Positions 28,389 to 57,876 of a stretch of 64,000 nucleotides of DNA are shown in pieces. The DNA lies in NCBI GenBank assembly GCA_033439255.1, contig JAVRDV010000017.1, positions 62,001-126,000 on the forward strand. Direction: 5' to 3'. The stretch comes from Hericium rajendrae (lineage: Eukaryota > Basidiomycota > Agaricomycetes > Russulales > Hericiaceae). A program made the position numbers and the translations under genes. The notes beneath the pieces are model-generated. The model saw only the letters and a program-made list of their open reading frames with translations. It was not told the origin of the DNA and did not search any database. Position 1 is the first letter of the stretch; every line of letters begins with the position of its first letter.

Positions 28389-28390
<2 letters not shown>

Positions 28391-35126: not shown

Positions 35127-35159
35127 CAGGTGGACATTTCCACCTGCCATCGAACCTAG
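35127..35159 (+). repeat. Helitron 3' terminus: hairpin plus CTAG
   Basis: CAGGTGGA-CATT-TCCACCTG forms an 8-bp perfect stem, then GCCATCGAAC and CTAG, followed by T. This is the textbook Helitron CTRR terminus with insertion before T. Confidence 0.85.
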
Positions 35160-37560
35160 TATTCATTACTGAGCCGTGCGCAGCGCGGCCGCTCCAGCGA
35201 TTTTGTGCATGCTGGGTGATCCAAAGATGTATCTATTGGTATTTTTCTTGCGGGGTAGTCACTTGAACGAACTGACGACCAGAAGGCCGTGCTTTGCGCG
35301 GCAGAAATTCGAATATTTTATTCGAATAAAAATATTCGAATATCTTTTGGCTTGCACACCTATGGGCATACTGCCAAAAAAACGGGTTTCTTCCCGGACG
35401 TCCGGGTTTTGTCACGCGGCTGTCCGGGTTTTTTCCCCGGACATCCGGGGATGGCCGGCAATTCCCGAAAACCCGGACCGGACCGTCCGGATCCGGGAAA
35501 AAACGGCAGTCCGATAGTGGGTGTGGGCGACCTAGGACCTAGCTGAGTTCGAAACCTAACGGAGTTCGAAACTCGGCGGCACCTCGCGAGACTCTTGTAC
35601 AGTCGATGATATCTCGCTCGAATGTCAATCATTTCAGTCCAGCTAAGCTCAAAAATTATCTGGACAGACAGAGTTTTATATTTGCTCAATATCGTGTGAT
35701 ATGCAGCTATCTCAGCGACAAACGGCAAGACGAAGGTTTGCCTTCGGAGGCGAAGACCTAGCGGAGTCCAAAAGGGTTCCCACGATTTAATTGCAGGACT
35801 TCGTACGAGAAGATGTGCGGGTGCCGTCGAAAAGGTGTATCTCGAGCTGCCCCAGGTACTTCAATAAAAGAAGCTTGAGAGTATATTACTGTATGGCATA
35901 TTATGATTGCTTTAAAATTGGAGGTCAGGCTATGCTTCAGCGAGAATGTAGCACGAAAAGTTGAGCATACTAAGTACACATGGTACGTGCATTGAAATTG
36001 GCCCCGAAGGGGCCCGAAAAAAAATCAGTGGTCTTTGGGAGTGAGCGGGCTTCAGAATATATCAGACCATCTCCTAGCATTATAGCTTCTTAGTTGCTGG
36101 ACAGCTAGTGTACCCTGTATGATGCATTCGTGAACAAATCCTGCTGTAGAACATTTATTACATTGCCGCGCGAAGCGCGGCGCATTCTACGCCTCGAGCA
36201 ACCTTTCGACAGTCTTTCTCATGTTCTCAAGTTGCGTGAAACTCGATGCGTCAATGTACGTCGACGCGACGAGTCCAAGACGCGACTGGCACTGCCGCGC
36301 TTCGCGCGGCGGAAATTCGAATATTATATTCGAATAAATATATTCGAATATTTCTCCTGGCCGTCCACACCTATAAATGGACTGCCGCAAACGACATGAC
36401 CCGGACTTCCATAAGTGACTACTGTACTGTAAGTCGAACAATCTGCGTCATTTATTGTTGTCGATCTGGATAACACGTGACCAAAATGTTGAATAGCTCG
36501 GCGCTTCGGCTGGGATGCGGTCTTCAACCTACAGTAACTCGCCATTTCCACGACCCCAGTGCTGCGAAGGGCCCTTCGTTGTTCTGGCTCGTTGGATTGG
36601 AAAGGCTGCTCCGCGTTGCTGTGTGTGCTTGGGAATGCATGCGGCGATGCTGGGTCACCTAGATGGAAGGGGGTGGTGCGCTCCGGTGCAACAGCTCTGG
36701 CTCGAGGCGTGCTTGCATGCCCCTGGGTCCAGCTCCTTGCGTTTCCCCAGACGCACGGCAGCTGTCTTCCATTGAGTGAGGGAGGGAGCGCATCTTACGC
36801 GCATTCCTTGGGCAGCAGTGCGTCGAGACTGACGTCGCCCCGGCCGCACCCCAATGCGTCGAGACTGACGTTGGCCGCCCATGAGGTGGAAGCACTCCTC
36901 GGCGGGGACAGGACCACGGTCCTCCCCTCTGCTGTTCAAGGTCAGTTCCGCGTTTCTGCTTGTTATCCAAGGTCGGTGTCAAGTTTCTGTTTTCCGTTCA
37001 GTCGGTTTTTCTTCCATCTGTTGTTCAAGGTAGGTTTTCCATCTCTCTGCTGTTTGAGATCTTCAGGGTTGATAGGGTGGACGGTTGAGGAGAAAGGGGG
37101 CATGTTGGTGTTTCGTCGTAAGGCGCTTCTTTGCTGATTATAATGAAGTAAATCATTCCAGCCATGATGTTCGCACATTCGTCTCTGATTCCCACGACTG
37201 TTGCAGTTCTAGGCATCTTATTTTCTATTGTGCCGCAAGACTTTATGGCTAGGATTTGGGTAATGCTCTGTTTCTCAAGAATTTGGCCACACTGCAGCAC
37301 TGGTGGAAAAGGATCAAACCGACAGAAGCTTATGGGTAAGTGGATGGCCCATTGATGATATGCAGAGCTCATGCTGGCAGGTTACAGTTCTCCTTTTCAG
37401 GTAGGTAATTGTTTCGATGAAAGAGCGTTTGCCCTTCCAGAGAGCACCTCGTAAAATTGTAGGTCAATTCTTTGTGCTGGAATAAGTACTGCCGGAGCGT
37501 TGTGTTGGGGTTTTCTTGCATTTAGATTGGATCAAGCTGTGGACATTCTGTCATCCGCCT
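35160..37560. other. arm segment with ATTCGAATA repeats and GC dyads, no gene
   Basis: Two related segments, 35280-35375 and 36290-36380, share a GCCG.GCTT.GCGCGGC dyad, then ATTCGAATATT.TATTCGAATA and CACACCTAT. A small TIR-like unit starting ACTGCCAAAAAAACGGG and ending CGGGAAAAAACGGCAGT spans about 35371-35512 and is packed with CCCGGA motifs. Palindromes GCCGCGCGAAGCGCGGC (36165) and GGCCCCGAAGGGGCC (36001) also occur. The rest, to 37560, is repeat-like with GTTCAAGGTCGGTTT-type repeats near 36940-37035. Mirror coordinates are 52404-54804. Confidence 0.6.
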
Positions 37561-37564
37561 AATT

Positions 37565-37630
37565 AGACCGGTGACCGTCTCTCTAGACATAGAAAGGCGA
37601 GCGATCTGTCGTAGACAGACCGGTCGATCT
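37565..37630 (-). repeat. AGATCGACCGGTCTGTCTACG motif, left arm copy
   Basis: A 65-70 bp motif: on the minus strand AGATCGACCGGTCTGTCTAC, then CTCGCCTTTC, then GTCTAGAGAGACGGTCACC. Full copies occur here, at 52334-52399 and at 41204-41268; a half copy lies at 47774-47802. Its two halves are imperfect inverted relatives, so it may be a miniature element or a transposon terminus. Confidence 0.65.
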
Positions 37631-37739
37631 CAGCGCGCCACATCCCTTTTCGGATGAACGCAGCGTTATGCTCCTCAATATACACCATTCAACGCATTGC
37701 ATCTCAAGTTCTCATCCTCCTGTACTCTATATAACTGAC

Positions 37740-38095
37740 AGCTTACCTGAGCTGTTCGCACTGCATGTCCGTCCCAGCGACTTCAAGGAGCACTGCAGCG
37801 TGTTCGCGGGCTACCACTCGTGCTTCCGGGGCTTCAAGCCCGCCGCCCGGCGAGGACCGCAAGCTGAGCTGGCGGAGTACGCGAAGGTGCTCAAGCAATG
37901 CTTCCCCGACATCGAACAGATCGTGATGAAGGTCATGGCGGCGCGCAACGCGCCCGCCGGCAAGGGGCTCAATCGCGTTTGCGTGCTGACGAATGGGAAG
38001 CGCGAGTGACTCGACAGGCTGCCCGTCGTGCTGAATAGGGCCGCACGCTGCAAGAGCATGGCGACGAGCCGGGGTCACCAGTTGTCTACCACGTA
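37740..38095 (+). pseudogene. O-fucosyltransferase-like gene fragment (left arm, outer)
   Basis: The frame reads LPELFALHVRPSDFKEHCSV, FAGYHSCFRGFKP, then AEYAKVLKQCFPDIEQIVMK and VCVLTNGKRE, then TGA where Trp would be expected. Fungal GDP-fucose O-fucosyltransferase-like proteins typically have ALHVRRGDF.EHC and, about 80 residues later, V.V.TNGKREWL. The RRGDF motif is altered to RPSDF and only a roughly 100-codon piece is present, so this is a captured, non-functional fragment. GC-rich third positions contrast with the AT-rich Helitron nearby, suggesting a host gene origin. Confidence 0.55.
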
Positions 38096-39184
38096 ATGTA
38101 GCCTCTGCATGATGGTTTTTGGGAACCACAGTATACCATGTAGTTCTTATACTGCGGCGGTGGTACTGCCCCAAATTGGCCCCAAACACATCGAGCCAGC
38201 ACCGAGTTAGCACCGAGCCAGCACCGAGCCACCAATATGGTCATCCAGGACGGCTGCATTGCGACTGTCCGGTACTTGGTCCGGCAGCAACATACATTGT
38301 AATCCTCTATCCTGCATACGCTGCAGCGACTGCACTCACTTTGCATCCCGTTGCTCAGCCGTGCAGACAAGTTAGAGAACATGATAAGTATAAATAATAC
38401 CGTATCAAACGATTGTCTATGAAAGCTTTGCTATATTTTATCAAATCATATCTTCGACGCAAAATCTACCGTCCAGACGGGGTGGTGCCCGCAGGGCCGT
38501 GCTATCAAGTCAAACATGTGACATCTGAAATCTGATTTCCAAATTTGGAAATCCAGTTTTCAGTGGCTCGCGATGTGGCTCGGTGGTGCAGCTGAAGCAA
38601 TTTTACAATGATGTTCTCAGGTTGTGTCGCGCAGGGCACCGTTCGAAAGCTATGCTTAACGGCTTTCAGGAACGTCTGAAATGTCAGCGTTGCATCCTTG
38701 TATTCCTTGTATTGTAACGATATGCCTAAAACAAAATTTGACCCCATTATTTTCAGAGATTTTGCCCCTGGGGCATGAGTTCTGCACCTATCATGATGAT
38801 GACGGCTTGTCCAAAAGTGATTGATGAGGGCCTTCAGCCGAGCCAAAAACATTTAAGTATCGCAGATTACAGCCATTTGCGATTGGAAATTATGCGAAAT
38901 CGCCGCGCGTTTGCGGCGGCGGTGGCGTTCGGTCCACACCAGTCCGGAGACTAGTAAGTAAGCATGTCGGCACCAAAGACAATCAATGTATGTTGCTACC
39001 GGACAGTCGCGACGCAGCCGTCCTGGATGACCATGTTGCCCTTGATACCACAGTGCAGTGGCTCGGTGCTGGCTCGGTGCTGGCTCGGTGCTGGCTCGAT
39101 GTGTTTGGGGCAGTACCGCCACCGCAGTATAAGAATTACATGGTATACTGTGGTTCCCAAAAACCATCATGCAGAGGCTACATT

Positions 39185-39545
39185 ACGTGGTAGACAACTG
39201 GTGACCCCGGCTCGTCGCCATGCTCTTGCAGCGTGCGGCCCTATTCAGCACGACGGGCAGCCTGTCGAGTCACTCGCGCTTCCCATTCGTCAGCACGCAA
39301 ACGCGATTGAGCCCCTTGCCGGCGGGCGCGTTGCGCGCCGCCATGACCTTCATCACGATCTGTTCGATGTCGGGGAAGCATTGCTTGAGCACCTTCGCGT
39401 ACTCCGCCAGCTCAGCTTGCGGTCCTCGCCGGGCGGCGGGCTTGAAGCCCCGGAAGCACGAGTGGTAGCCCGCGAACACGCTGCAGTGCTCCTTGAAGTC
39501 GCTGGGACGGACATGCAGTGCGAACAGCTCAGGTAAGCTGTCAGT
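39185..39545 (-). pseudogene. O-fucosyltransferase-like gene fragment (left arm, inner, inverted)
   Basis: Inverted duplicate of the fragment at 37740-38095 within the same fold-back element, with the same protein sequence and the same stop after TNGKRE. It reads toward the first copy, so transcription through the element would give a hairpin RNA. Confidence 0.55.
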
Positions 39546-39575
39546 TATATAGAGTACAGGAGGATGAGAACTTGA

Positions 39576-40445
39576 GATGCAATAGGACCCCCGACAACCC
39601 CCCCCCAAAGGTTCGATCCGCTCCAAGAGGCTCGTTACCGACAGACCTCCAGGGTCGGCCGCAGCGCTCGGTATACGCGCCGCGGATCAGACCTAGCATT
39701 TGGGCGAATCGTTACCGCGCCCAGTATCAGAGCTCGAAAAATCAGTTTAAATAAGAAAGAAATTGTATTTTTCTCCCAGCGTATCTAGACATCCCCAAGC
39801 AACACCGCAGACAACCCGTCCTGCACCAGCACTGTCATGCCCTTGTCTCACTCGCATCGCACTGTCTACTCAGCTGCGCCAGACGCGTGCGCATGCGCGC
39901 GAACCGCGAGCAGCCACGGGTGCTGCCCTTTCACCGCGAGGATATAATGCGAGAAAGGATCTACGCCCTAAAGGACATCTGATAGGACCCAACATGCCTC
40001 AACAGGCATACTATCATGTCTTACCTATGGCCTTCGGTGTATACGGCGTGTCTGCCCCCGGTGGACAGATGCTACTTGGCATTATTGCGGCGCTGAGAAA
40101 CGGCACCGCGGTCCATCTGCATCAGCTCGAAATAGCTTGTGAAGGAAATCCACGACATCGTGCTTGAATTCACTGCTCACTATATACCGGTGCAATATCC
40201 TCTGAAGAGGACAAATTTTGAAGAATATTTCATCCCTTCATTTGGCCGAAATGGGTCAGCCGTGTTACCGCGCGGCGGATCAGACCTCGGCCGGTGCTGG
40301 CTCGGTATACGCATCAAACTTAGAGATTTGGGCTAAATTTGGGCCCTCGTTACCGCCATTTCCTCAGAGCTCCGGCGCTATGCGCCGTTTGGTGAACGCA
40401 CCCGGATCGAACCCTTGGGTGGCTTGTCGGGGGTCCTGATGCAAT
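39576..40445. mobile_element. hAT-type MITE, 854 bp, left arm
   Basis: Element 39584-40437 has inverted ends AGGACCCCCGACAA ... TTGTCGGGGGTCCT extending about 35 bp (through CGGATCGAACC). It is flanked by a perfect 8-bp duplication GATGCAAT (39576-39583 and 40438-40445). Removing it restores the mirror symmetry of the fold-back element. No transposase. Mirror copy in the right arm: 49527-50380. Confidence 0.9.
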
Positions 40446-40533
40446 GCGTTGAATGGTGTATATTGAAGAGCATAACGCCGCATTTGAGCATCACGTGAAG
40501 TCATCCGAAAGGGATGTGGTGCGCGGGTCTTGC

Positions 40534-41175
40534 GCTACGACGTGGCACAGATTTGTTATTGTGCACATTAGAATGTCAGCTACAGTACTAATTCTCGATT
40601 GACTACATTAGAGAGCATAGAGTGGTCCTCAAGTTCGATAAATAACAGGTTCGTATTATATTCCAACAGGGCAGTGGAGAGTACTTGTACAGTGGTGTGT
40701 GTGCGAAGACAGCAGAACGTTAACTCAAAAGTGATGAAAGTTCAGTCCTGTACTGGTGCTCATGAAATTTACAAAATCCATGATGGGGAGAAGTGAGCGG
40801 ACACGTGCGCTCGGTGGAGAATAGCAGGAGGTGCGTGGTATCAGGCATGGGCGCGGGCAATGCTCTCATTGCATGCCTTATGGTTTGCTGGAAGAAAGGA
40901 TAAGGCGCCACATGCATGAGATGGACACATCTGATGGATTGCAGGATCTCAAATGAGTTGAGCAGAGATGCAGTTGCCGACGAAGATGAGAATAAAAGCT
41001 ACGAGGTACTACAAGGTGTGACTGACACCAGCATGGGTGCGGGGTGGCATAGATAGTCATCAATCATCATGTAGTTTACTAATAGTGGAAGTGGACGACA
41101 CGTCTCAGTGGAAGTCGGAGCTTCAACCGACTTCCACTGGCTCAGACTCACTTCCACTCTTTTAGTATATACTCG
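40534..41175. other. no gene recognised
   Basis: Inner end of the left arm and the first 95 bp of the unique centre. Small open frames here mirror those at 48901-49430 and show no domain. A short mirror motif of the AGTGGAAGTCGG type occurs at about 41090-41160. Confidence 0.5.
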
Positions 41176-41203
41176 TAGGCGCGCGTCCTAGTAATTCATA
41201 CCC

Positions 41204-41268
41204 AGATCGACCGGTCTGTCTACGACAGCTCGCCTTTCAACTATGTCTAGACAGACGGTCACCGGTCT
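41204..41268 (+). repeat. AGATCGACCGGTCTGTCTACG motif, central copy
   Basis: It overlaps the left central TIR. It shares its sequence with the arm copies (37565, 52334), showing that the arms and the centre carry related termini. The right central TIR (47769-47839) has only the first half. Confidence 0.65.
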
Positions 41269-41285
41269 ATCTGAGTCCTACCAAC

Positions 41286-41850
41286 CTAGCGAGATCCCGT
41301 CCTCCACACCGTGTGGGCGCTTGCGCTCATCCCCGACGAGTTGGATGAGCCGACCTCTGCTATCGATGACGATGCGCTTTCGCGTTCAAGGCACCGTTCT
41401 CGCGGCTGTTGTACATCAACTCGGAAGGGCACGACATCCACCCTTGTGTCAAAGTCCACCTGGTGTGTATTCCGTCGAGATACCGTGCGGTCGCGCGTAT
41501 GCTTCACGAAAACCACCTCCTGCACAGCCTTGGCACTCGGCATGAACACAGCATCGACGACGCACCCCGTCTCCGCATTCATGACACACATGTGGTGTAT
41601 CTGCCGGACGTGCGCACCGCAGTCGACATTACCCACATGATGGTGCGCCGTCTCCTGCTCTGCTCTTTAATTTCCAGATGTGGGTGCAAGCCCCTGGTGT
41701 GCGGTGCGTGCTCCTGGAGAGCACAGTGCATCACCGCCGACCGGAGGACGTGCCATTCTGTGCGATGCGGATTGCCACTCCCAACAGGCATGACATTCAC
41801 AATGAAAACTTACTGTGACATAGCATCTGCATTTTTCGCAGCACTTCATG
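41286..41850 (-). pseudogene. unrecognised minus-strand gene fragment
   Basis: A 116-codon frame (41286-41636) reads VRQIHHMCVMNAETGCVVDA, VFMPSAKAVQEVVFVKHTRD and a Ser/Arg-rich tail. Upstream, KCCEKCRCYVTVSFHCECHACWEW (41740-41850) is Cys-rich and may be a zinc-binding piece. It lies downstream of and in the same direction as the PHD-like gene, so it could be its 3' exons or a separate decayed gene. Family not recognised. Confidence 0.4.
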
Positions 41851-41987
41851 ACTATTTCATGTACATACTGCCCTCCGTAATATTTTCCATCAAATGTCGC
41901 TATTCACGAGCTTTGCCTGCAGCTGAGAAAACACAAAATTGATTGATTCCAACTTTTACAAAGGCCAACATTGATTACCGACTTGCA

Positions 41988-43461
41988 CTACAATGCTGCA
42001 CCCTGACACCCAGGGCACCAATAATAGTCTATATTGTCGTCGGAGTACCTCCCCATAACTTCCTCCACTGCACTCTGCACCTGGCACTTTTTGTCCATCT
42101 TCTTCGCCTCTTGGTCTTCCAGGATCAACTCCGACCTTTTCGCCAAAGTCGTCAGCCAATCCTCTCCCAGGTCCCCATCATCATAAAGCTGGGACCGAGT
42201 TCTTCTACGTTGGAAAGCCGATGCTGCTCGATTCCATCCAATCTCCTTTGCCCACCCCAGTGCACACACCAAAAGCCGTTCGATGCTCATGGGCGCACCT
42301 CCTTCTCGTGGCACCCGTGCAATGGGAAGCCGGAGCAATGCCTGCAAAGTTATTGGGTTTCCGTCGAGCTTCTCCTTCGAATCAAAGTGCTCTTGGCCCC
42401 ATTGGCCAAATGCTGTTCCACCTTGAACGTCCTCGTACCGTTGGCAGCACACCACATGGTACCATTTTTCACATGTCACACACCAACGAACCTCTTGCTC
42501 TGCTGTATCGTAGAGCTGATCTTTCTTGCAGCCTTCATTCTTGCAGATTCTCTTCCACTGCCACCAAATGGCTTGTTACATCATGGCAGATGGAAATAGC
42601 ATGAAAGAATTTCTCACCTGCATTTGCAGATTTCCATTGTGGATCCCTGACAGCGTCATCCGCTGGTAGTAATCTTCCCGTCTCAGATAGGGCATGCTTG
42701 TCGTGTCATCATCAAAGATGGCCACAACGCAATGGCCTTGCAGCCCGACCGTCAGAGACATCACTCCAACTTCACCGGAACAAGCCACTCACCATTGAAA
42801 ACATCGAGATAGAGGAAGTCTACCCAGTCGGTGAGCACCCGTTCGTGATAGCCCAACTTTTTCCCATTTCTGTCCCCAGCGACCGGTCACCTTCTCCAGC
42901 TAAGAACCCGATGAGATGACTTACAACAGATCAAAAGAACGGATGTGTTTTTTCCTCCCCCTTCCCTTTTTTTCCTTCCTTTCCTCCAAAGCCACCTCAA
43001 GGTCTGAGGCACTACAGAACCAATGGACCTTTGCAATGATGTCTTGCTTTGTTCACCGCAAACCATTCTGCTGTCAGCTCTCATCTTCTATTTCCCACAG
43101 AAACCAAGGCTTACAGTCTCTTTGTTCTTATATAATTTTATTTCATCGATGGCAGCAAGCCAATGCTCTGACCAGCAGTTTGCCTGGGCCCTTTCTGCTG
43201 ACACGTAGACCCTTGTGGATGAAACCAGTCAGTCCGTCCACCGTTTCCCGCCAAATAAATGACTCACGTGTCTTGTGGATGATACGTTGTCGACTTCAAC
43301 CGGCCAGAATCATATTTGGACTTCACTAGCAGGACATTATCGATCCGTCACATTTTCCTCTCATCGTTCAGAGAAAAGAGCATCTCACCAGTCATGGACC
43401 GGCAACGAGGCAAACTTTCAAACACTTCTTCCGTGATCTGCAAGTTAGCGGACATTTTGCC
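41988..43461 (-). pseudogene. PHD-finger-like protein gene (possible chromatin reader)
   Basis: The last exon (41988-42557) joins in phase to the preceding exon (ending 42618) across a 60-bp intron (GTGAGA...TGGCAG). It encodes ICKNEGCKKDQ, then WCVTCEKWYHVVCC, and ends YYWCPGC: C-x4-C, C-x2-C-x4-H-x2-C and C-x2-C, the ligand order of a PHD finger with a long insertion before the final pair. Upstream pieces (YHERVLTDWVDFLYLDVF, VAIFDDDTTSMPYLRREDYY, and MSANLQITEEVFESLPRCRS at about 43461) could form a BAH-like domain, but they lie in different frames and at least one break is likely. PHD modules bind histone tails in the nucleus. It is downstream of the dioxygenase on the same strand. Confidence 0.5.
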
Positions 43462-44619
43462 ACAAGAGAAGCTTGTAGAATGACGATTGGGAGGGAGAGA
43501 GAAACAAAGTGCAGACCAGGATCCACTGCCAACAAAGCAAGCCAACGACGAGAAATAGAATCGCTACCATATCAGTATACAGATCTCGCTTGCTCGACAT
43601 GCCGATCAATCTCGGCTGCTTGAGAGACTCAAAAATGTGAATTGAACGCCTTGGCTTGGTTCGAGCTGAGAACTGTAAGTAAGAGAGGCTGTGGAAGCTC
43701 ATAATATTAGCTCAGTTCAAACCTGCCAGAGGTAATAAACCCGAAGGTCGAAGGCGAACGTCGACTCGAAGGTCCTGCGGCGCAGCACCACATTCGGTAA
43801 GCTGTCGTGACTCGTGACCGATCGTTACGAAACCGTTTCGCCTTACGGGATCGCCGGCTCGTCGCCGTCCCCGATGGCGAGCTCAGATTTTTCCACTTGT
43901 TACTTGTATCTCTTGAAGAATCTCAAATCATTTGAGAGCTAATGATTTCTGTATCCATGAGGGGAGCATGAGCATTGTTTTTGGCAACTCAGCTGATTAC
44001 GGGCATGTGTAATATTGTTATTCTTAAGGCAACTTGAATAAGTATCTTTCCCTTGATCTGTCCTCAGCTTGGATGAGGCCAGAACTTGGGAATAATGCAA
44101 CTGATACACACAAAAATGGAACTGCGACAATGCGCTCAAGAAAGCATGACTCATCGACGAGGGAAGCGATGAGTGCGAGCCTGTCGACACCGCAGAGCGT
44201 GGCAACTGCAGGCGCTGGTAGAATGACGGAGTGGCGAGGCTGTCATCGCGCCTTCAGCCACAAGGCCTTCGAGTCGACCTTCGCATTCGACCTTCGCATT
44301 CACCTTCCGCAGGTTTGAACTCCACTATTGTCTGATGATGATGACCCCGCGACTTAGACTTCTGAAATGCGATAGCAAGATTGGTTGTTGTTCTTCTGAT
44401 TTGATACCTGCCAAACTGCAGACATCCTGGGATCAACAATTACGGAATGTTGAGACTTGAAAGCCGATTTCAACTAAACATATTCAAAGTATGTAATGAG
44501 CAAGAATCAGACTGTGTGTCCTTGAAATCAAGAGCAACGGTGCACAGGGGGGGGTCTGCTCCTCCTTGTTAAATGTCGAACCAGGCTCCGTCGTTCATGT
44601 CCACCACAGCAAGATGTTC
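43462..44619. other. intergenic segment with inverted CGAAGGTCGA repeats
   Basis: It separates the PHD-like and dioxygenase genes. CGAAGGTCGAAGGCGAACGT (about 43744) and its inverted relatives CCTTCGAGTCGACCTTCGCA (about 44264-44311) bracket about 570 bp and may mark a small TIR element. No supported gene. Confidence 0.4.
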
Positions 44620-46247
44620 TTATGTATCAGGTGCCGTCCCATAGCACGTATGTTTCCCCCATAACGGAGGCTTCCCTTCCAGGCAATTCAGACTGGGCTT
44701 TGGTGAGAAAAATACCGTCGATATCCTGCCCGGTGTTATCGTCCCTTCCTCCTCCACACCCGGTGTCCAAGTTGACACCTGGTGGGCCAACATCCCAGCA
44801 TATCCAAGGAAAACATCGCCAGGACGATAGCTGCCACAAATGTTGATATCAGACCTTCTCTGCCCATCAGCGAGGAGAAAGGGAACTGCTTACTAGAACC
44901 TCACTTTCAGGCCAGGGACCTCCATGTACCCACCCTCAAAATTGCCTACCGGAAAGGTTGCAGTGGGGCCTCCGTCGTTCTTATCGTAGTGAAGGTTTGA
45001 TTGAAGCTTGTACACAATCACCCTTCCCAGCCACGGTCCAGGGTCTGCCTCCTCCCACACCCCTGCCGCAAATGCCGTTTGGAATTTCTTGTACATCTCC
45101 GGGTGCAGCACCTCAAACATCGCAGATAACTCCTGGGCAATCTCCCTCGTGTTTCGCATATACCAAGAAATTGCCGTCAAAGATTGTGAATTATAAAACA
45201 TGTCCTTTGACGGACCGAAAGACTGAAAACGCCCGCCCTCCTCATGTTAGTATGCCAACGTTATGCACTACCTAGGGCTTACCTCCGGCAGGCCTTGGTG
45301 ACCCTGAGGGTACCAAGCATGAATGAGGGACAAAGTCCCCATCTGCTCCTCTTTTTCTTCACCGGTAGGCGTCTTGTACTTCATCAGGTAGGCATCCTCG
45401 TCCTTGGGCTCACCGATCGGATGTCGTTTGCCCGCTTTCGGTGGCTTCGGCTGATTTTTTGATGCTAAAAACTGGACTGCCTGCTGATAGCTGGGCAGCA
45501 GCCGTTTCTGGCATGGAAAACATTAGAACACAGATCGCAATAACATGGAGGGACATGGGGGAGGAGGGGAAAGAAGAGGATGCAATAATCTACTTGCAGA
45601 GATACCGTCGTGGACAAGCTGTTTCCCTTCCTGCAGTCCTTGCTCCATGTCCTCCAGCGTACGACCTAGGTACTGCCGGTCCAACGGCTGTGGCTGAGAT
45701 GCCTTAAAGCAACAATAAACACTTATTTTTTTCCTCCAAAACATGCATCTCACCCCGTTTGTCCGCACTTGGTCATCCTTCCACCTCAACGCAAGATAGC
45801 TCGCTATCAGCTTGCCGTTTTTGTCTACAAATCGCGCCGAAAATGGGATCACAGGCGTGCATTGCAGCTCGCCGTAGCAGAATGTCCTCTGCGTATCCAG
45901 CGACTTCTCTATCCTGCTCTCCGACTCCAACTCCTCCATGCTCCGTTCGATCTGGAACACCGGCGCATGGTTCTGGAAGAGCCTCGCACGGTAATGAGCA
46001 GAATTCTTGTCCTTCTCAGCCAGCTTGCTCTCTGAACGTGCCAATTTTGGGAAGAAATGGCGACGGATGCTCAGTGCCTCAATTTGAGGCCCTTCAACCT
46101 TGCCCCGCTAAGCCAGACATCATTAACAGCAGCCCAAAACAACACTGTATCCTCAGCACGTACCTTTGTCTTCTTCTTACTCCTGCCATGCCCAGATCCA
46201 CTGCTTTCCTGGACCTTCTGTCCTTTCTTGCCTTTGTGCGGTGACAT
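44620..46247 (-). CDS. TET/JBP-like 2-oxoglutarate/Fe(II) dioxygenase
   Basis: Six minus-strand exons: 46164-46247, 45754-46107, 45606-45693, 45283-45507, 44894-45222, 44620-44830; introns mostly 51-64 bp with GT-AG ends and a TACTAAC branch site in intron 4. About 430 residues. After a Lys-rich N-terminus, exon 5 gives NLHYDKNDGG (Fe ligands H-x-D, near residue 329), TFPVGNFEGGYMEVPGL, then across the GTAAGC intron RFYYRPGDVFLGYAGMLAHQ (distal His, near 377) and TITPGRISTVFF (2OG-binding Arg, near 398). All ligands are present. Such enzymes oxidise 5-methylcytosine or thymine in DNA; a relative acting on protein or RNA is possible. One doubt: the best exon 3 donor (GTATCT at 45605) is out of phase with exon 4, so one junction is wrong or carries a one-base shift. 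The other junctions checked are in phase. Confidence 0.65.
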
Positions 46248-46364
46248 CACAATAGAGCAGAAAAGAGGGATGCGTCACATTCCAACATATATCACGTGAT
46301 TGTTTAGATCACGTGTTGTTCGGCCAGACACCCATTACATAATCGTCGTATCGGCCGCCGGCGA

Positions 46365-47168
46365 GCATACCCAGGACCCCGGATAATTAGGACTTATCTC
46401 ATGTCATGGTCCGGACATTTTTGGGGCCTTTTGACCGAAAAAGCCATGTTCAAGTCCGGACAAATCGACCCCCTGCCGGTCGGGAGGCCATGTACGTGGT
46501 CCGGACATGGGATAGCAGGTACTTGATAACCCATGTAAGAGTCCGGACGCTGGCCCCGATCCACGCCAAACCCACTAAAACATCAAGTACTCGTGCGGCG
46601 TCTGCAGGCGTCAGCACACCAATCATGGCCAAAACCGCGCGAAAGCGGCCTCCAACGCTGTTCGTCGGGGCGGCGCTTCTCCCTCACGCGGTGATTGGCC
46701 AGAGTTTGCAATGGCCACACAATACGCCCTATCCGGTTGGCACATCACTCGACAATGCTCATCCCCTGCAAGAGTCGTGTATCGCGTGGGTACGAAGAGG
46801 AGAGCTGTTGACACAAGTCCAGCTACAGTGAGCGTTTGTTGTTTGCCGTGCCGCAATAACCAATATAACACCTATTATCATCCTGTTTGGCCGAAAGTAC
46901 AGCATCAAGCCTCTGAGTGGCTTGGAGTGGCTCGTAACGCTTCTAGGGAGCGGCGCGAGCTCGATTTCTGCATTCTGGGGCGATTTTTGCGAAATTCGAC
47001 CAGCAATCGTGTACATAGTCCGGACAAATCATGCCGGGCCAGCTGGAAGCCATGTCCAGTCCGGACAAAAATTCGCCCCAACCGACCTCCAGTCCGGACA
47101 TTTTTAAGGGCCGATTTTGAAAATTCTGACATGGCCTTTGTACTGATTATCCGGGGTCCTGCATACCC
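46365..47168. mobile_element. hAT-type MITE (788 bp) upstream of the dioxygenase gene
   Basis: Element 46373-47160 has inverted ends AGGACCCCGGATAATTAG ... TGATTATCCGGGGTCCT and is flanked by a perfect 8-bp duplication GCATACCC (46365-46372 and 47161-47168). The interior contains many GTCCGGACA motifs. It begins 125 bp upstream of the dioxygenase ATG, so it now supplies its upstream region. The first bases AGGACCCC are shared with the arm MITE, suggesting one hAT family. Confidence 0.9.
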
Positions 47169-48345
47169 TTGCTCACCCTTGTGACATCGTGACATCTTTA
47201 GTAAGCCAAGTCAGCCTAGTGATCCGGTATGGTACACCGAGGCTAACTAGGCTTCGGACACCCTTATCGAGTGGTCGATGCAGAACCTCGGAGCCTCGTC
47301 GACTTGAGGGCCTCTCACATCGCTGTTGGCACGTCATCGACTGATGGCGGGCCCCGGGCGCCCGCGGATCCCGCCCCACCGTCATACGGAATCCCCATCA
47401 AACGCCCTTCCGCCGCGTCGTCCGCGGCGCCAAGGCCCCTCGTCCCTGTCGCCGATGACGACAACGACTATCCCCGGTTTCCCGTACCTTATCTATGACA
47501 ATATATATATTTTTGGAAAGCGTTTCTCACGCACTTCATGACTATTGAGGTCTCAGAGCGATTAGGTATGGTTTTCATGTTGTCTACCCTGCAATTTCCC
47601 TCATATGTCTGGGTCGGCGCCGGACATGAATGGGCACCAAATTGGCCGAGCACTGGGCTAATACGGACATTTTTGGGCCTCTTCAGGCAGGGTTGTGTGG
47701 GCCATATCGCGGACATGAACGGGGCTCCCGGAAGAGGTCTGGTCCATGCCGGACATGATGTCTTTTGGCCATAGTTGAAAGGCGAGCTGTCGTAGACAGA
47801 CCGGTCGATCTGGGTATGAATTACTAGGACGCGCGCCTATTTTGGGCGGTCGGGCCATAGGTGGGCGCTGAGCGAGCTCTAGCTGAGTTTGAATTCTAGC
47901 GGACTTCGAATTGTAACGGGCTTCGAAAATTGGTGCCTTTTTCGGCAGGAGCCACGCTTAGTCATTGCTGTTGCACTTTGTAGCTGCTGCGAACAAATGT
48001 TCTGTAGCCCGCAGCATATCTCCGCACGCTGTGTAACTTAGCGTTTCGCGTTTTCCATATGAACGCAGATAGTATGAAATTTTTCGAGACGTGCAGAGCT
48101 ACGCAAAGTGTGTAGATTTAAAATCTTCGATAGTGATATGGCCTGTCACATGCTCTCTGCCTCTCGGGCAAATGCCATGTTCTGTGCAGCTTTGGTGTGT
48201 CCAGAAGGCCATCAATATAATAGGAAGACAATACTCTTGAGTTATCTGCTCCCAGTCTGTACACAAACACTGCTATTTGCACAGAAATGATGTATCATTG
48301 TTGCATCAAGTGCTCATCTCGGGTGCGAGCTGTTTGGTAAATGGA
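47169..48345. other. no gene recognised
   Basis: It includes the right central TIR (47769-47839). Left of it are more CGGACAT/GGACATTTTTGGGCC motifs (47620-47760) resembling the neighbouring MITE. Right of it are GAGTTTGAATTCTAGCGGAC motifs like those at 35540 in the arm. Short frames show no domain. Confidence 0.4.
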
Positions 48346-48517
48346 TGACTTTCCGCGGCCTTATTTTTATTCTATGATATGTTTTGGAGGTCATTTAGAT
48401 TCAAAGTCCGCTGATTTGCACGACCTGATTGGATGAGGAGGTCATTTTGGATGTTAGCGAGGCATTTGAAATGGCCTCAGGAATATCATAACATAGATTT
48501 AAGGCCGCGGAAAGTCA
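48346..48517. mobile_element. 172-bp TIR MITE
   Basis: TGACTTTCCGCGGCCTTA at the left is inverted at the right as TAAGGCCGCGGAAAGTCA, with further pairing of TATGATAT/ATATCATA. No clear target duplication. It is non-coding. Confidence 0.65.
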
Positions 48518-49518
48518 CCCAATATCGAGCTTCGAGCATGCTGATTCAACATGGATGATAGACATGACATGCTTGCATTTTTTTCCAGTTGCAATCTGAC
48601 TGACAGAGAGGTTGTGCAATGCACCGAGCTACTGACAGTGTGCCGCCGAAGGCGGCCAGAAAAATATTGATTACATCTGAAACTTGCTGAACTCTCAGGG
48701 GAAATATCATGCATTGTCTGCATCGTGAGTATACTAAGCATCCCCGAGCACGCGAACATTGAGTGTAACCGAGAAACCATGTAGAACTTGCGAGGCATGC
48801 TGCCTCGAGTTAATTTAATTCTTTTCGAATTAATTAATTCTTTTTCCGTCCAAAGTATGCCCACCTATAACTCGACTGCCCAAAGTAAACTGCATGATGA
48901 TTGATGACTATCTATGCCACCCCGCACCCATGCTGGTGTCAGTCACACCTTGTAGTACCTCGTAGCTTTTATTCTCATCTTCGTCGGCAACTGCATCTCT
49001 GCTCAACTCATTTGAGATCCTGCAATCCATCAGATGTGTCCATCTCATGCATGTGGCGCCTTATCCTTTCTTCCAGCAAACCATAAGGCATGCAATGAGA
49101 GCATTGCCCGCGCCCATGCCTGATACCACGCACCTCCTGCTATTCTCCACCGAGCGCACGTGTCCGCTCACTTCTCCCCATCATGGATTTTGTAAATTTC
49201 ATGAGCACCAGTACAGGACTGAACTTTCATCACTTTTGAGTTAACGTTCTGCTGTCTTCGCACACACACCACTGTACAAGTACTCTCCACTGCCCTGTTG
49301 GAATATAATACGAACCTGTTATTTATCGAACTTGAGGACCACTCTATGCTCTCTAATGTAGTCAATCGAGAATTAGTACTGTAGCTGACATTCTAATGTG
49401 CACAATAACAAATCTGTGCCACGTCGTAGCGCAAGACCCGCGCACCACATCCCTTTCGGATGACTTCACGTGATGCTCAAATGCGGCGTTATGCTCTTCA
49501 ATATACACCATTCAACGC

Positions 49519-50388
49519 ATTGCATCAGGACCCCCGACAAGCCACCCAAGGGTTCGATCCGGGTGCGTTCACCAAACGGCGCATAGCGCCGGAGCTCTGA
49601 GGAAATGGCGGTAACGAGGGCCCAAATTTAGCCCAAATCTCTAAGTTTGATGCGTATACCGAGCCAGCACCGGCCGAGGTCTGATCCGCCGCGCGGTAAC
49701 ACGGCTGACCCATTTCGGCCAAATGAAGGGATGAAATATTCTTCAAAATTTGTCCTCTTCAGAGGATATTGCACCGGTATATAGTGAGCAGTGAATTCAA
49801 GCACGATGTCGTGGATTTCCTTCACAAGCTATTTCGAGCTGATGCAGATGGACCGCGGTGCCGTTTCTCAGCGCCGCAATAATGCCAAGTAGCATCTGTC
49901 CACCGGGGGCAGACACGCCGTATACACCGAAGGCCATAGGTAAGACATGATAGTATGCCTGTTGAGGCATGTTGGGTCCTATCAGATGTCCTTTAGGGCG
50001 TAGATCCTTTCTCGCATTATATCCTCGCGGTGAAAGGGCAGCACCCGTGGCTGCTCGCGGTTCGCGCGCATGCGCACGCGTCTGGCGCAGCTGAGTAGAC
50101 AGTGCGATGCGAGTGAGACAAGGGCATGACAGTGCTGGTGCAGGACGGGTTGTCTGCGGTGTTGCTTGGGGATGTCTAGATACGCTGGGAGAAAAATACA
50201 ATTTCTTTCTTATTTAAACTGATTTTTCGAGCTCTGATACTGGGCGCGGTAACGATTCGCCCAAATGCTAGGTCTGATCCGCGGCGCGTATACCGAGCGC
50301 TGCGGCCGACCCTGGAGGTCTGTCGGTAACGAGCCTCTTGGAGCGGATCGAACCTTTGGGGGGGGGTTGTCGGGGGTCCTATTGCATC
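49519..50388. mobile_element. hAT-type MITE, right arm copy
   Basis: Mirror of the left arm MITE: element 49527-50380 with duplication ATTGCATC on both sides (49519-49526 and 50381-50388). Its presence in both arms at the same site means that insertion preceded the inverted duplication or was copied by gene conversion. Confidence 0.9.
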
Positions 50389-50418
50389 TCAAGTTCTCAT
50401 CCTCCTGTACTCTATATA

Positions 50419-50779
50419 ACTGACAGCTTACCTGAGCTGTTCGCACTGCATGTCCGTCCCAGCGACTTCAAGGAGCACTGCAGCGTGTTCGCGGGCTACC
50501 ACTCGTGCTTCCGGGGCTTCAAGCCCGCCGCCCGGCGAGGACCGCAAGCTGAGCTGGCGGAGTACGCGAAGGTGCTCAAGCAATGCTTCCCCGACATCGA
50601 ACAGATCGTGATGAAGGTCATGGCGGCGCGCAACGCGCCCGCCGGCAAGGGGCTCAATCGCGTTTGCGTGCTGACGAATGGGAAGCGCGAGTGACTCGAC
50701 AGGCTGCCCGTCGTGCTGAATAGGGCCGCACGCTGCAAGAGCATGGCGACGAGCCGGGGTCACCAGTTGTCTACCACGT
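50419..50779 (+). pseudogene. O-fucosyltransferase-like fragment (right arm, inner)
   Basis: Mirror copy of 39185-39545. It has the same LPELFALHVRPSDFKEHC ... TNGKRE frame and the same stop. See the left arm copies for the family argument. Confidence 0.55.
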
Positions 50780-51868
50780 AATGTAGCCTCTGCATGATGG
50801 TTTTTGGGAACCACAGTATACCATGTAATTCTTATACTGCGGTGGCGGTACTGCCCCAAACACATCGAGCCAGCACCGAGCCAGCACCGAGCCAGCACCG
50901 AGCCACTGCACTGTGGTATCAAGGGCAACATGGTCATCCAGGACGGCTGCGTCGCGACTGTCCGGTAGCAACATACATTGATTGTCTTTGGTGCCGACAT
51001 GCTTACTTACTAGTCTCCGGACTGGTGTGGACCGAACGCCACCGCCGCCGCAAACGCGCGGCGATTTCGCATAATTTCCAATCGCAAATGGCTGTAATCT
51101 GCGATACTTAAATGTTTTTGGCTCGGCTGAAGGCCCTCATCAATCACTTTTGGACAAGCCGTCATCATCATGATAGGTGCAGAACTCATGCCCCAGGGGC
51201 AAAATCTCTGAAAATAATGGGGTCAAATTTTGTTTTAGGCATATCGTTACAATACAAGGAATACAAGGATGCAACGCTGACATTTCAGACGTTCCTGAAA
51301 GCCGTTAAGCATAGCTTTCGAACGGTGCCCTGCGCGACACAACCTGAGAACATCATTGTAAAATTGCTTCAGCTGCACCACCGAGCCACATCGCGAGCCA
51401 CTGAAAACTGGATTTCCAAATTTGGAAATCAGATTTCAGATGTCACATGTTTGACTTGATAGCACGGCCCTGCGGGCACCACCCCGTCTGGACGGTAGAT
51501 TTTGCGTCGAAGATATGATTTGATAAAATATAGCAAAGCTTTCATAGACAATCGTTTGATACGGTATTATTTATACTTATCATGTTCTCTAACTTGTCTG
51601 CACGGCTGAGCAACGGGATGCAAAGTGAGTGCAGTCGCTGCAGCGTATGCAGGATAGAGGATTACAATGTATGTTGCTGCCGGACCAAGTACCGGACAGT
51701 CGCAATGCAGCCGTCCTGGATGACCATATTGGTGGCTCGGTGCTGGCTCGGTGCTAACTCGGTGCTGGCTCGATGTGTTTGGGGCCAATTTGGGGCAGTA
51801 CCACCGCCGCAGTATAAGAACTACATGGTATACTGTGGTTCCCAAAAACCATCATGCAGAGGCTACAT

Positions 51869-52224
51869 TACGTGGTAGACAACTGGTGACCCCGGCTCGT
51901 CGCCATGCTCTTGCAGCGTGCGGCCCTATTCAGCACGACGGGCAGCCTGTCGAGTCACTCGCGCTTCCCATTCGTCAGCACGCAAACGCGATTGAGCCCC
52001 TTGCCGGCGGGCGCGTTGCGCGCCGCCATGACCTTCATCACGATCTGTTCGATGTCGGGGAAGCATTGCTTGAGCACCTTCGCGTACTCCGCCAGCTCAG
52101 CTTGCGGTCCTCGCCGGGCGGCGGGCTTGAAGCCCCGGAAGCACGAGTGGTAGCCCGCGAACACGCTGCAGTGCTCCTTGAAGTCGCTGGGACGGACATG
52201 CAGTGCGAACAGCTCAGGTAAGCT
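51869..52224 (-). pseudogene. O-fucosyltransferase-like fragment (right arm, outer)
   Basis: Mirror copy of 37740-38095, giving four copies of this fragment in the window, two in each orientation. Confidence 0.55.
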
Positions 52225-52333
52225 GTCAGTTATATAGAGTACAGGAGGATGAGAACTTGAGATGCAATGCGTTGAATGGTGTATATTGAGGAGCATAACG
52301 CTGCGTTCATCCGAAAAGGGATGTGGCGCGCTG

Positions 52334-52399
52334 AGATCGACCGGTCTGTCTACGACAGATCGCTCGCCTTTCTATGTCTAGAGAGACGGTCACCGGTCT
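52334..52399 (+). repeat. AGATCGACCGGTCTGTCTACG motif, right arm copy
   Basis: Mirror of 37565-37630. From here to 54804 the arm repeats, in reverse order, the non-coding segment described at 35160-37560, with no supported gene. Confidence 0.65.
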
Positions 52400-55300
52400 A
52401 ATTAGGCGGATGACAGAATGTCCACAGCTTGATCCAATCTAAATGCAAGAAAACCCCAACACAACGCTCCGGCAGTACTTATTCCAGCACAAAGAATTGA
52501 CCTACAATTTTACGAGGTGCTCTCTGGAAGGGCAAACGCTCTTTCATCGAAACAATTACCTACCTGAAAAGGAGAACTGTAACCTGCCAGCATGAGCTCT
52601 GCATATCATCAATGGGCCATCCACTTACCCATAAGCTTCTGTCGGTTTGATCCTTTTCCACCAGTGCTGCAGTGTGGCCAAATTCTTGAGAAACAGAGCA
52701 TTACCCAAATCCTAGCCATAAAGTCTTGCGGCACAATAGAAAATAAGATGCCTAGAACTGCAACAGTCGTGGGAATCAGAGACGAATGTGCGAACATCAT
52801 GGCTGGAATGATTTACTTCATTATAATCAGCAAAGAAGCGCCTTACGACGAAACACCAACATGCCCCCTTTCTCCTCAACCGTCCACCCTATCAACCCTG
52901 AAGATCTCAAACAGCAGAGAGATGGAAAACCTACCTTGAACAACAGATGGAAGAAAAACCGACCTTGAACGGAAAACAGAAACTTGACACCGACCTTGGA
53001 TAACAAGCAGAAACGCGGAACTGACCTTGAACAGCAGAGGGGAGGACCGTGGTCCTGTCCCCGCCGAGGAGTGCTTCCACCTCATGGGCGGCCAACGTCA
53101 GTCTCGACGCATTGGGGTGCGGCCGGGGCGACGTCAGTCTCGACGCACTGCTGCCCAAGGAATGCGCGTAAGATGCGCTCCCTCCCTCACTCAATGGAAG
53201 ACAGCTGCCGTGCGTCTGGGGAAACGCAAGGAGCTGGACCCAGGGGCATGCAAGCACGCCTCGAGCCAGAGCTGTTGCACCGGAGCGCACCACCCCCTTC
53301 CATCTAGGTGACCCAGCATCGCCGCATGCATTCCCAAGCACACACAGCAACGCGGAGCAGCCTTTCCAATCCAACGAGCCAGAACAACGAAGGGCCCTTC
53401 GCAGCACTGGGGTCGTGGAAATGGCGAGTTACTGTAGGTTGAAGACCGCATCCCAGCCGAAGCGCCGAGCTATTCAACATTTTGGTCACGTGTTATCCAG
53501 ATCGACAACAATAAATGACGCAGATTGTTCGACTTACAGTACAGTAGTCACTTATGGAAGTCCGGGTCATGTCGTTTGCGGCAGTCCATTTATAGGTGTG
53601 GACGGCCAGGAGAAATATTCGAATATATTTATTCGAATATAATATTCGAATTTCCGCCGCGCGAAGCGCGGCAGTGCCAGTCGCGTCTTGGACTCGTCGC
53701 GTCGACGTACATTGACGCATCGAGTTTCACGCAACTTGAGAACATGAGAAAGACTGTCGAAAGGTTGCTCGAGGCGTAGAATGCGCGCGCTTCGCGCGGC
53801 AATGTAATAAATGTTCTACAGCAGGATTTGTTCACGAATGCATCATACAGGGTACACTAGCTGTCCAGCAACTAAGAAGCTATAATGCTAGGAGATGGTC
53901 TGATATATTCTGAAGCCCGCTCACTCCCAAAGACCACTGATTTTTTTCGGGCCCCTTCGGGGCCAATTTCAATGCACGTACCATGTGTACTTAGTATGCT
54001 CAACTTTTCGTGCTACATTCTCGCTGAAGCATAGCCTGACCTCCAATTTTAAAGCAATCATAATATGCCATACAGTAATATACTCTCAAGCTTCTTTTAT
54101 TGAAGTACCTGGGGCAGCTCGAGATACACCTTTTCGACGGCACCCGCACATCTTCTCGTACGAAGTCCTGCAATTAAATCGTGGGAACCCTTTTGGACTC
54201 CGCTAGGTCTTCGCCTCCGAAGGCAAACCTTCGTCTTGCCGTTTGTCGCTGAGATAGCTGCATATCACACGATATTGAGCAAATATAAAACTCTGTCTGT
54301 CCAGATAATTTTTGAGCTTAGCTGGACTGAAATGATTGACATTCGAGCGAGATATCATCGACTGTACAAGAGTCTCGCGAGGTGCCGCCGAGTTTCGAAC
54401 TCCGTTAGGTTTCGAACTCAGCTAGGTCCTAGGTCGCCCACACCCACTATCGGACTGCCGTTTTTTTCCCGGATCCGGACGGTCCGGTCCGGGTTTTCGG
54501 GAATTGCCGGCCATCCCCGGATGTCCGGGGAAAAAACCCGGACAGCCGCGTGACAAAACCCGGACGTCCGGGAAGAAACCCGTTTTTTTGGCAGTATGCC
54601 CATAGGTGTGCAAGCCAAAAGATATTCGAATATTTTTATTCGAATAAAATATTCGAATTTCTGCCGCGCAAAGCACGGCCTTCTGGTCGTCAGTTCGTTC
54701 AAGTGACTACCCCGCAAGAAAAATACCAATAGATACATCTTTGGATCACCCAGCATGCACAAAATCGCTGGAGCGGCGCGCTGCGCACGGCTCAGTAATG
54801 AATACTAGGTTCGATGGCAGGTGGAAATGTCCACCTGAGAATGGGGAGCTTGCTAAATTCGAATTTAAAAATACAATGTTTATTACAATATTTGACTTGA
54901 AGAATTTTTGATAAATACATCATTTGTAGCTAGTGTTCATAATCATAAAACTGTTCTCAGTACTCATTCATGTCAATACCATACCAGTCATTGTCTAAAG
55001 GAAGGTTATTTCTGCATAAAGTATCCTCAGTAAGAGCATCTAAGATAGCTGAACTTTGAGGTTTTTGAAGTCGAGTATGATCAAATCTAGATCTAAATGC
55101 TAAACCTTTTAGAGTTCGAACACAAGAGATGGCAACAAATGAAAGACCAGAAGAAAAATCCTTATCTCCAAGATCAATGGCTGCCTTATCCAAAGTCAAT
55201 CCTTGACTTTTGTGAATGGTGATAGCCCATGCTAATGTGAGAGGCATCTAGCTTCTAGAAAGAGTTCTACCACCTTTTTCCCACTTTGATGTTACAGAAA

Positions 55301-57876
55301 TGATAGGAACACATCTAGGATGAATCCCAAGTATGTTATGATCAGGTCCTGTTAGAACATATATCAGTTATTTTATGTATTAATAAAATCATGAAGCAAA
55401 CCTGAATATCCATCAAATTTTACCCATACTACTGCAGGTAGATGTGACTGGACATCAGATCCACTAGAGAACCAGATTTTCTCAATGACACCTTGTGATC
55501 CATTGATCAATCCTATAATAGAGTTAGTCTCTGATTGAAGTCGATCAAGAAAATAACACACCTTTTGATGTCCAGAGATTTCTAGTTAACATAACTTTAG
55601 CACCTTCAGCTAATAGTATCTCAGTAGGAAGACCTTCAGCATCATCTTTACTTCCATGTTTGGCCTCTCTTGAGTTATGCTTTGCTTTTCATCGTAAGAT
55701 TGGCTTTCCTAAATTTAACAGACGAACTTTATTCAGATGAAGTACTGCTGCTTTTTTTGGCAGTATATATATAACATCATCAAATGATGACCTTTCTTCT
55801 GCAGATAATATATCTCAGAATCGTGATGAAAATAGAGTGTAGTCCTCATCTGTATTTGTGTAGGTTCTTAATCGAAGTAAGGCATCTCTAAAAGCAACCT
55901 GCTGTGGATCTGTTCCTGCTTGTCTAAAAATTGTTTGCAATGTAACAGATTGATTAAATGATTTATAGGGTTTTCGACCTTTTGTACTTAATGCTAAATG
56001 TCCAACATTTGCCTGATTTTTTGAAAACAATGTACTATTACCAATAGGAGGAAGCTGAGCAAAACCTCCAAACAACAAAGTGGGAAGACCACCCATTATA
56101 CTTGGTGGAAGAGGGCCAATGCTGTGCATGGCAAAACGATTCCTTTTTTTTTATCATCAATGAAGCTATATAAATTACCATCATGTATGGCCATGTACAG
56201 GTATACTGACATCTTGCATGCAGGCCTGTACCTCATGTCTTATACTTGGCATGTAGCATTGTGCTGGGGCCAGTGCCTCATGCATGCCTGCTACACCTCA
56301 TGCCAGCTCACTATGCCTCATGTTCACTGGTCACACCCTATGCTGATCTACCACATCTCGATGTACCTTGTGGATGGGCCAGTGACAGCTTAGAGATGAC
56401 TACAGCTGAATGTGAGCATGTCAGCCAGCATAACTATATACATGCATTGTGTGTTGCTATGTGCAGGTGTGTCACCTGCCTGTACCTTGTGCCTCATGCC
56501 TCATACACAGACATACCAAGCCATGCATAGGCTTAGTGCCTTATGCATGCTCATCATGCTACACTACATCTTGCATACAAGCCACCATCCTATAGATGCT
56601 TACTGTACTTCATGTACAGGCCCACAGCATCTTGACACTCTGCACATGCTTGCAGCATCCTGTGCATGGCCACCACACCCTGTTGATCTCCTGTACAAGC
56701 TAGTAGCAGCCTTACATATGGGCCTGTATGCCTTATGCTCACCCTCTATGCCTCATGCATGGCTCTCAATATCTCACACATCCTCACTGCACATTGCATC
56801 TTATATATAGGCCCACTACAGCTTAACATTGGTGAGCATGGCCACTGGACCTCCTGCACAGCTATGACACTTATCATGCCTTGTGCATGAACCTAGTGCC
56901 TTATGCACATATGTACTTTTGTTGTGCCTTACCAGTGCACACATGCCTGCACATAGCTCTACCTGTACATGATGTGTACCATTGTGCATGTGTGCACTGT
57001 TTGAACTTGTAATATACTTGATTGTACTAGTAGCTATATGAAATATAATTGATTTTGGCTTTATATCTCTTGTACCTGATTGATCTGAGACAGTACTAAT
57101 AGCAGAGATCATAGTAGGGACCATATAGATCAGAGCAAGCCTTTGAATTTATATGATTTGTACAACAACTATAGCTATCCTTCAAAAACATGTAGCACTA
57201 TATAGTGTCCAACTACTGTTATGATAGCTATGATAGGCCTCATAGTCTTACATAGTTGAGAACTGTGGTGGCATAAATAGTGATAGACCTTATAGTGCTA
57301 TGATAAAACATATAGATCAATACTGGGCTATATGAAATTTCAATTTTTCAGATGATACACACTACACCAACTCATATATGCACTCTTGGCTCACATTTTT
57401 TGACCTATGCATACTTTTGTTGATTAGCTTACACATGTATCAACCTATGAGCATCACAACAAACTTATGTATGCTTCTACTACCTCATACATTTTCTGTT
57501 AGCCTGTGTACCTTCTATTGATTTGTATGCATTGCTGCTAGCACCAAAGGCAGAATTTAATTTCTATATTTGGATTTTTTTTTCTGACTTTTACAAAAAA
57601 TAACATAAATCATATCAGTTTTTTTTTTAATAGAGCTTATATCTCTTCAATGTATAATCTAGTCAGTATTTTTCTATTTTACATGCATAAAATACTATAA
57701 AAATTGAATTCTTACCTTCAAATCATATTTTGTATACTGGCAGAAATTAGTGACCAAATATGGCAACTACTTTCTGGTAAAATTGCCTGTCGATTAGCAT
57801 GAAGGTTTAGAGTAACAAAAAACTTATACAAATACCTGAGAGCATCAATTGTGCAAACATCACTTTAAGTATATTA

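Follow-up and report, generated by a model that had tools for sequence, protein, structure and literature searches.

We identified an intact, intron-bearing gene of Hericium rajendrae, present at a single locus, which probably encodes a deeply diverged Fe(II)/2-oxoglutarate dioxygenase of the TET/JBP type. The window, which means the whole stretch of 64,000 nt that was analysed, is contig C17 (JAVRDV010000017.1), positions 62001-126000, of an assembly of 46.8 Mb and 19 contigs. The gene lies on the minus strand from ATG 46247 to TAA 44622-44620, just the interval given by the initial annotation, and its six exons encode 435 aa (Table 1). TET/JBP kinship of the predicted protein is well supported by profile comparison, and we consider it highly probable.

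Table 1. Position of the gene parts and of the neighbouring features in the window
Feature	Position	Strand	Characteristics
Inner left arm	37001-41080		
Left arm's own insertion	about 41083-41160		About 75 bp, MITE-like; also in C18
Perfect 70-nt inverted repeat	41176-41245 and 47770-47839		Brackets the island
PHD-like ORF	41991-42575	-	Stop-to-stop, 195 aa; on the strand of the gene; PHD match under the cut-off (E 0.033)
MITE-like element	43714-44328		Inverted ends; directly 3' of the gene; 70% copy on C8
Exon 6	44620-44830	-	YRPGDV, distal His H382 (44784-44782), 2OG Arg R401 (44727-44725), TAA
Intron 5	44831-44893	-	GTAAGC...TGGCAG, 63 nt
Exon 5	44894-45222	-	Helix motif REIAQELSAMFEVLHPEMY, HYD (H334, 44991-44989; D336, 44985-44983), D339, T343, GNFEGG
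Exon 4	45283-45507	-	Motif GTLSLIHAWYPQGHQ (start 45339) at the 3' end, matches CcTet 221-235 GVLTFAPAWWPVGHE
Intron 3	45508-45597	-	GC-AG, GCAAGT donor
Exon 3	45598-45702	-	
Exon 2	45754-46107	-	N-terminal region without family match
Exon 1	46164-46247	-	ATG and basic Lys/Gly/Ser-rich N-terminus, MSPHKGKKGQKVQ...GRSKKKTK; counterpart C18:7100-7186
MITE-like element	46371-47160		Adjoins the gene on its 5' side; C3, C7, C9 and C13 have copies of about 85%, C11 a part
Right arm's own insertion	47845-48883		About 1-kb element; also in C18
Inner right arm	48884-52963		100% complementary to the inner left arm; arms 4,080 nt

The coding frame, read in the DNA, runs without a stop for 435 codons through the six exons. 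When the coding sequence of the first model (441 codons) was shuffled 2000 times, the mean number of stops was 20.7 and the fewest was 7. GC content by codon position was 0.56/0.42/0.62, and that of the first-model introns was 0.46. The CpG observed/expected ratio of the coding sequence (0.723) is the same as that of the whole window (0.722), so it gives no sign of protection. The introns are GT-AG apart from intron 3, and intron 4 carries a branch-point-like TACTAAC. For intron 3 the GC-AG boundary was taken because it is needed to keep the frame; with either of the GT donors that were examined (45605 and 45593), exon 4 would be read in the wrong frame. For intron 5 a 45-nt version (44904-44860), giving 441 aa, was rejected: that protein had no Pfam match at E<=1 and its core none at E<=10. 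The blocks aligned by hhalign to other TETs indicated the GTAAGC donor and the TGGCAG acceptor, and the longer intron restores VPGLKVRFYYRPGDV, as in TETs. We infer the splicing of the six-exon model from frame and homology, on which the splice sites rest, and the choice of intron 5 was partly made for the better match with TETs. Two points of the clean introns described before needed correction, the GC-AG boundary of intron 3 and the limits of intron 5.

In the Pfam search with the corrected model, Tet_JBP (PF12851) was the sole family at E<=10, with E 1.3e-5 for residues 246-407. The match covers model positions 4-161 of 164, nearly the whole domain, with a score of 24.9 bits that is below the curated Pfam cut-off of 34.9; residues 1-237 had no Pfam match. 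It was the correction of intron 5 that turned no match at E<=1 into this result. The profile check agreed with the proposal of a TET/JBP-like dioxygenase; the outcome named as its refutation, a non-TET 2OG family as best match, was not observed. The corrected protein compared by hhalign with six TET ORFs of its own genome plus CcTet scored 68.6 (probability 96), against at most 25.9 for 200 shuffles. With the correction the score on the AG profile went up from 44.1 to 57.0; on AG plus CcTet it had been 58.8 and became 68.6.

Because intron 5 was partly picked for fit, the shuffle tests of the first model are the cleaner proof of kinship. The first model scored 33.7 against the six own-genome TET ORFs (100 shuffles, <=20.2) and 43.3 against the AG-only profile (200 shuffles, <=21.95). 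As background for the AG profile we used 186 ORFs of >=150 aa from positions 1-41000 of the window and from 15 other stretches; a known TET scored 983 and a TET-like ORF 31.0, while none of the remaining 184 exceeded 20.5. Three non-TET 2OG ORFs of the genome (two PF13640, one PF03171) scored 10.7-15.1 on the same profile. Pairwise alignment of the first model with CcTet recovered the upstream motif only, and 13 of 1000 shuffles were as good. The best PDB sequence match of the corrected domain was Naegleria Tet (NgTet1), at a weak E of 0.043. A single-sequence AlphaFold2 model, in which intron sequence was read through, had a pLDDT of 30, too low to be of use. PF20515 had no match in this genome, nor in 14 control genomes, so that null result is uninformative. 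One weak own-genome match (C2:2234621, E 0.167) was inspected at the sequence level and dropped as chance.

The signature of the Fe(II)/2OG superfamily is complete: the HxD...H triad is formed by H334, D336 and H382, and R401 follows after a 10-residue insert behind the distal His. Every catalytic ligand listed in the initial annotation (H-x-D, distal His and 2OG Arg) is present. The H, D, G, H and R positions are invariant when the first model is aligned with CcTet and with two TETs each from the AG and the Plavaka side. In the alignment R401 corresponds to CcTet Arg385, the loss of which is reported to abolish activity (PMC11040006).

Compared with the AG type and CcTet, the gene has the same collinear blocks, G.L.....W..QGH, E.A..SA....HP..Y, HxD, P.L....Y.P..V, the distal His and the Arg, with the upstream motif GTLSLIHAWYPQGH common to the gene and CcTet. 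Its length is also similar, 435 aa against 415-430 aa of the CcTet PDB chains. However, identity is only 17-26%, the insert before the Arg is found in the gene here, and the base-reading places hold Asp339/Thr343 instead of Gly331/Asp337 of CcTet. PMC12730594 defines the AG type by Gly or Ser at position 331 of CcTet and Asp at position 337; at the first of these base-reading places, the AG ORFs of this genome that were inspected carry Gly or Ser, and the gene has Asp339 and Thr343. The AG type is borne by Kyakuja/Zisupton elements, whereas the gene here is at a single locus and has no KDZ neighbour among the matches listed.

The PE type of Agaricus and Pezizomycetes is described as far from other TETs, with Agaricomycete members (PMC12730594), and the gene here is likewise far from other TETs. 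By definition the PE type has HxE instead of HxD (PMC12730594), but the gene has HxD (HYD). NgTet1 (PDB 5cg8, 4lt5) shares HxDxxDxxP[ST]...GNF and PGDV and base-reading residues of the same kind; the likeness is limited to 57 query residues with a weak score, and Naegleria is not a fungus. The Plavaka-side TET-like ORFs (C2:33965 and C14:67218) share the core HxDxxD, P.GxFxGG, GD, H and GxR.S.VF. They differ in being dispersed, the upstream helix was not seen in the two stretches inspected, and all six ORFs on that side are 6.7-7.7 kb from a Plavaka match. A tree of 11 rows gave the gene a branch of 4.08, apart from both AG/CcTet and the Plavaka-side pair; with none of eight inner branches starred and a long-branch warning, it appears to nest in neither group, without firm support. 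Judged by these residues and the Pfam score, the gene fits neither the AG type, nor the PE type, nor above-cut-off Pfam membership.

The genome has 46 PF12851 matches (38 above the cut-off), and its transposase matches number 172 for KDZ and 132 for Plavaka; together with the AG-type TETs, these transposases point to an Agaricomycete. At least 36 of the 46 Tet_JBP matches have KDZ within 7 kb, and at least six have Plavaka within 8 kb, all six being below the Pfam cut-off. The remaining four have neither partner among the matches listed, with Plavaka at least 39 kb off or on another contig. KDZ linkage is the rule in this genome, and this gene is an exception: the nearest KDZ, among the best 150 of 172 matches with the weakest unlisted, is about 45 kb away. 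The matches listed place no KDZ or Plavaka in the window and no Plavaka on C17, and neither these genome matches nor 30 window ORFs gave a transposase in the same element as the gene. No scattered copies having termini and target duplications were found; the copies found were those of C17 and C18. For the DNA of 44329-46370, C18 was the sole other match among 68 listed (40 of 96 candidates scored), and the protein search of the own genome with the first model (six of six candidates scored) also gave C18 as the sole other copy. In the searches of the own genome, viral contigs, phages, NCBIfam and PHROGs, the query was the first-model protein, whole or as its C-terminal portion. No relatives were found among phages with the first model, among plasmids with the gene DNA, or with the N-terminal query and in further searches; in viral contigs, one stretch found with the first model was confirmed by tblastn. 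The linkage of mushroom TETs with KDZ to which the initial annotation pointed holds for this genome. For this gene, KDZ linkage or carriage by an element, and with it the proposed element-borne modifier, is not supported.

Several observations belong beside this survey. The four partnerless matches are C1:1705501, C12:2182408, C5:1141088 and C16:858996; the first two are the top-scoring Tet_JBP matches of the genome and may be host TETs. The six sub-threshold Plavaka-side matches are C2:33965, C2:3866436, C4:1122998, C4:348987, C9:549710 and C14:67218. Plavaka-borne TETs are given as PE type with HxE in PMC12730594, unlike C2:33965 and C14:67218, which carry HxD. Another TET-like ORF, with HLDSSN and Tet_JBP E 0.0057, is at about 15.0-15.6 kb of C17, and a KDZ match (C17:17222) is about 1.6 kb from it.

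A gene outside any recognised autonomous transposon could be a host gene or cargo that lost its carrier. The second reading, which we consider somewhat unlikely, is that a TET/JBP gene was carried by an unknown or degraded transposon, maybe with the PHD-like ORF, that its transposase was lost or is unrecognised, and that it lifted the methylation of the carrier. The genome-wide association with KDZ and Plavaka speaks for it, as do Helitron pieces in both palindrome arms, the perfect inverted repeat of 70 nt around the island, and the 11 transposon lineages, Helitrons included, that are reported to carry TETs (PMC12730594). But the gene has one locus and a near-identical duplicate, the 68 matches listed (40 of 96 candidates scored) include no further one for 44329-46370 or 41081-43713, and KDZ and Plavaka are lacking from the window among the matches listed. 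The 70-nt repeat, found only here and in C18 among the matches listed, looks like the innermost edge of the palindrome. Counter-silencing was proposed for transposon TETs (PMC12730594); with no carrier seen here, such a role lacks the carrier that it requires.

The palindrome has its midpoint at 44982, within the gene, which is located in the non-palindromic spacer, so its place at the heart of the palindrome was correctly noted before. The palindrome extends over 31234-41080 and 48884-64000 and past the window. The outer arms span at least C17:52001 to 175307, with blocks 99.5-99.9% identical. The arms are near-identical despite their own insertions, which hints at gene conversion, and the presence on two contigs with different flanks counts against a plain assembly artefact. 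The PHD-like ORF has full matches in C17 and C18 only, with two weak others at E 0.8-1.0, and might be a neighbour gene or a partner.

D339 (in HYDKND) and T343 are at five and nine positions after the first His, and they align with Asp234 and Ser238 of NgTet1 (HKDNLDITPS). The base-reading pair is reported as Asn1387/Thr1393 in hTet2 and Asp234/Ser238 in NgTet1, with 5mC as the substrate, and hTet2 Asn1387 and NgTet1 Asp234 as reading N4 of 5mC (PMC11040006). The Asn/Asp found at the fifth position after the His in conventional TETs is present here as D339. With D339 and T343 the gene follows the pattern of conventional TETs and not that of CcTet. From residues and kin, oxidation of 5mC in DNA is the likely function. 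We judge it fairly probable that the product is an active oxygenase of nucleic-acid bases, and for 5mC as the substrate the chance may be slightly short of even.

The folding, activity, substrate and localisation of the product are predicted as follows. Fe(II) would be held by H334, D336 and H382, and 2-oxoglutarate would be bound by R401. The base, most likely 5-methylcytosine, would be flipped from duplex DNA, held by D339 and T343, and then oxidised stepwise. The basic N-terminus might act in nuclear import or in contact with DNA. As to its setting, the gene stands alone between two non-autonomous repeats, outside any recognised autonomous transposon.

It is unlikely that this TET/JBP-fold 2OG oxygenase acts on RNA or another substrate instead of 5mC in DNA. 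Such a substrate would be matched with the very long branch in the 11-row tree and with the reactions of JBP and CMD1, which are described as unlike that of TET (PMC12730594). CcTet needs Asp337 for its 5mC activity, and Thr at this place abolishes it, according to PMC11040006; T343 here would count against a simple 5mC reading, in a comparison made less sure by a two-residue gap around the second base-reading place. On the other side, the pair D339/T343 is that of conventional TETs, whose substrate is 5mC.

A near-identical duplicate is located on C18: positions 1-22508 correspond with 99.8% identity to C17:101059-128846 (from 39059 of the window to past its end), without a 5.27-kb insert. 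In the gene copy on C18, exon 5 lacks one nucleotide at a CCCC/CCC homopolymer, which causes a frameshift, and there is one substitution, T404M. The two contigs differ at 29 columns in 17 kb, several of them likewise at homopolymers; for the frameshift, decay and an error of assembly are equally likely. The initial annotation took intactness as a sign of selection or recent arrival; the window copy is indeed whole, and its close relative carries this frameshift. That the gene died recently, the window copy being readable but unexpressed or decaying, is quite improbable: the C18 changes, the repeat-rich surroundings and the detectable expression of 4 of 46 TET genes reported for L. bicolor (PMC8889193) would agree with it, but the window copy reads through all 435 codons and keeps its ligands, and the C18 deletion is at a homopolymer like several other differences of these contigs.

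Fungal TETs are treated in print mainly as transposon cargo, and CcTet was shown to have an unusual chemistry on 5mC and 6mA. If a fungal TET stands alone and reads 5mC with the conventional residues, it would make a better candidate for a host demethylase and be easy to test; none of such kind is named in the literature searched, namely titles and abstracts with few subscription papers. A transposon-free lineage of mushroom TETs with NgTet1-like base reading, acting as a host enzyme with a possible PHD-like reader as partner and sheltered in the loop of a gene-converted palindrome, seems improbable as a whole. Since one wrong intron can hide a TET from Pfam, automatic gene models may undercount fungal TETs.

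Around the gene, the left arm holds a Helitron-type helicase that stops and changes of frame break into pieces. When 30 other ORFs of the window were compared with Pfam, the above-cut-off matches were Helitron pieces only, PIF1/AAA helicase in two ORFs and DUF6570 in one, and both arms hold such pieces. This agrees with the earlier remark that nearly all other genes are broken, as far as the sample of ORFs goes. A 1.5-kb non-autonomous Helitron-like repeat is at 28389-29889; its end TTACGATTCCTTAGAATCG has 213 exact copies in the genome, against none of the reversed control. The segment common to C17 and C18 stops exactly at the end of that repeat (C17:128846; C18:22508). The gene as passenger of a large Helitron was considered and dropped, as 28389-29889 is a many-copy repeat and the segment merely ends at its tip. 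A Helitron-like element of 5.27 kb is found three times in the right arm (56100-61371, C17:133429-138709 and C17:164625-169902) and is missing from the corresponding sites of the left arm; at 61371 it interrupts a PIF1-like helicase ORF. The helicase piece at 32923-34146 has a CpG observed/expected ratio of 0.154 (window 0.72) and GC of 0.36 (window 0.47), which reads as methylation-type decay.
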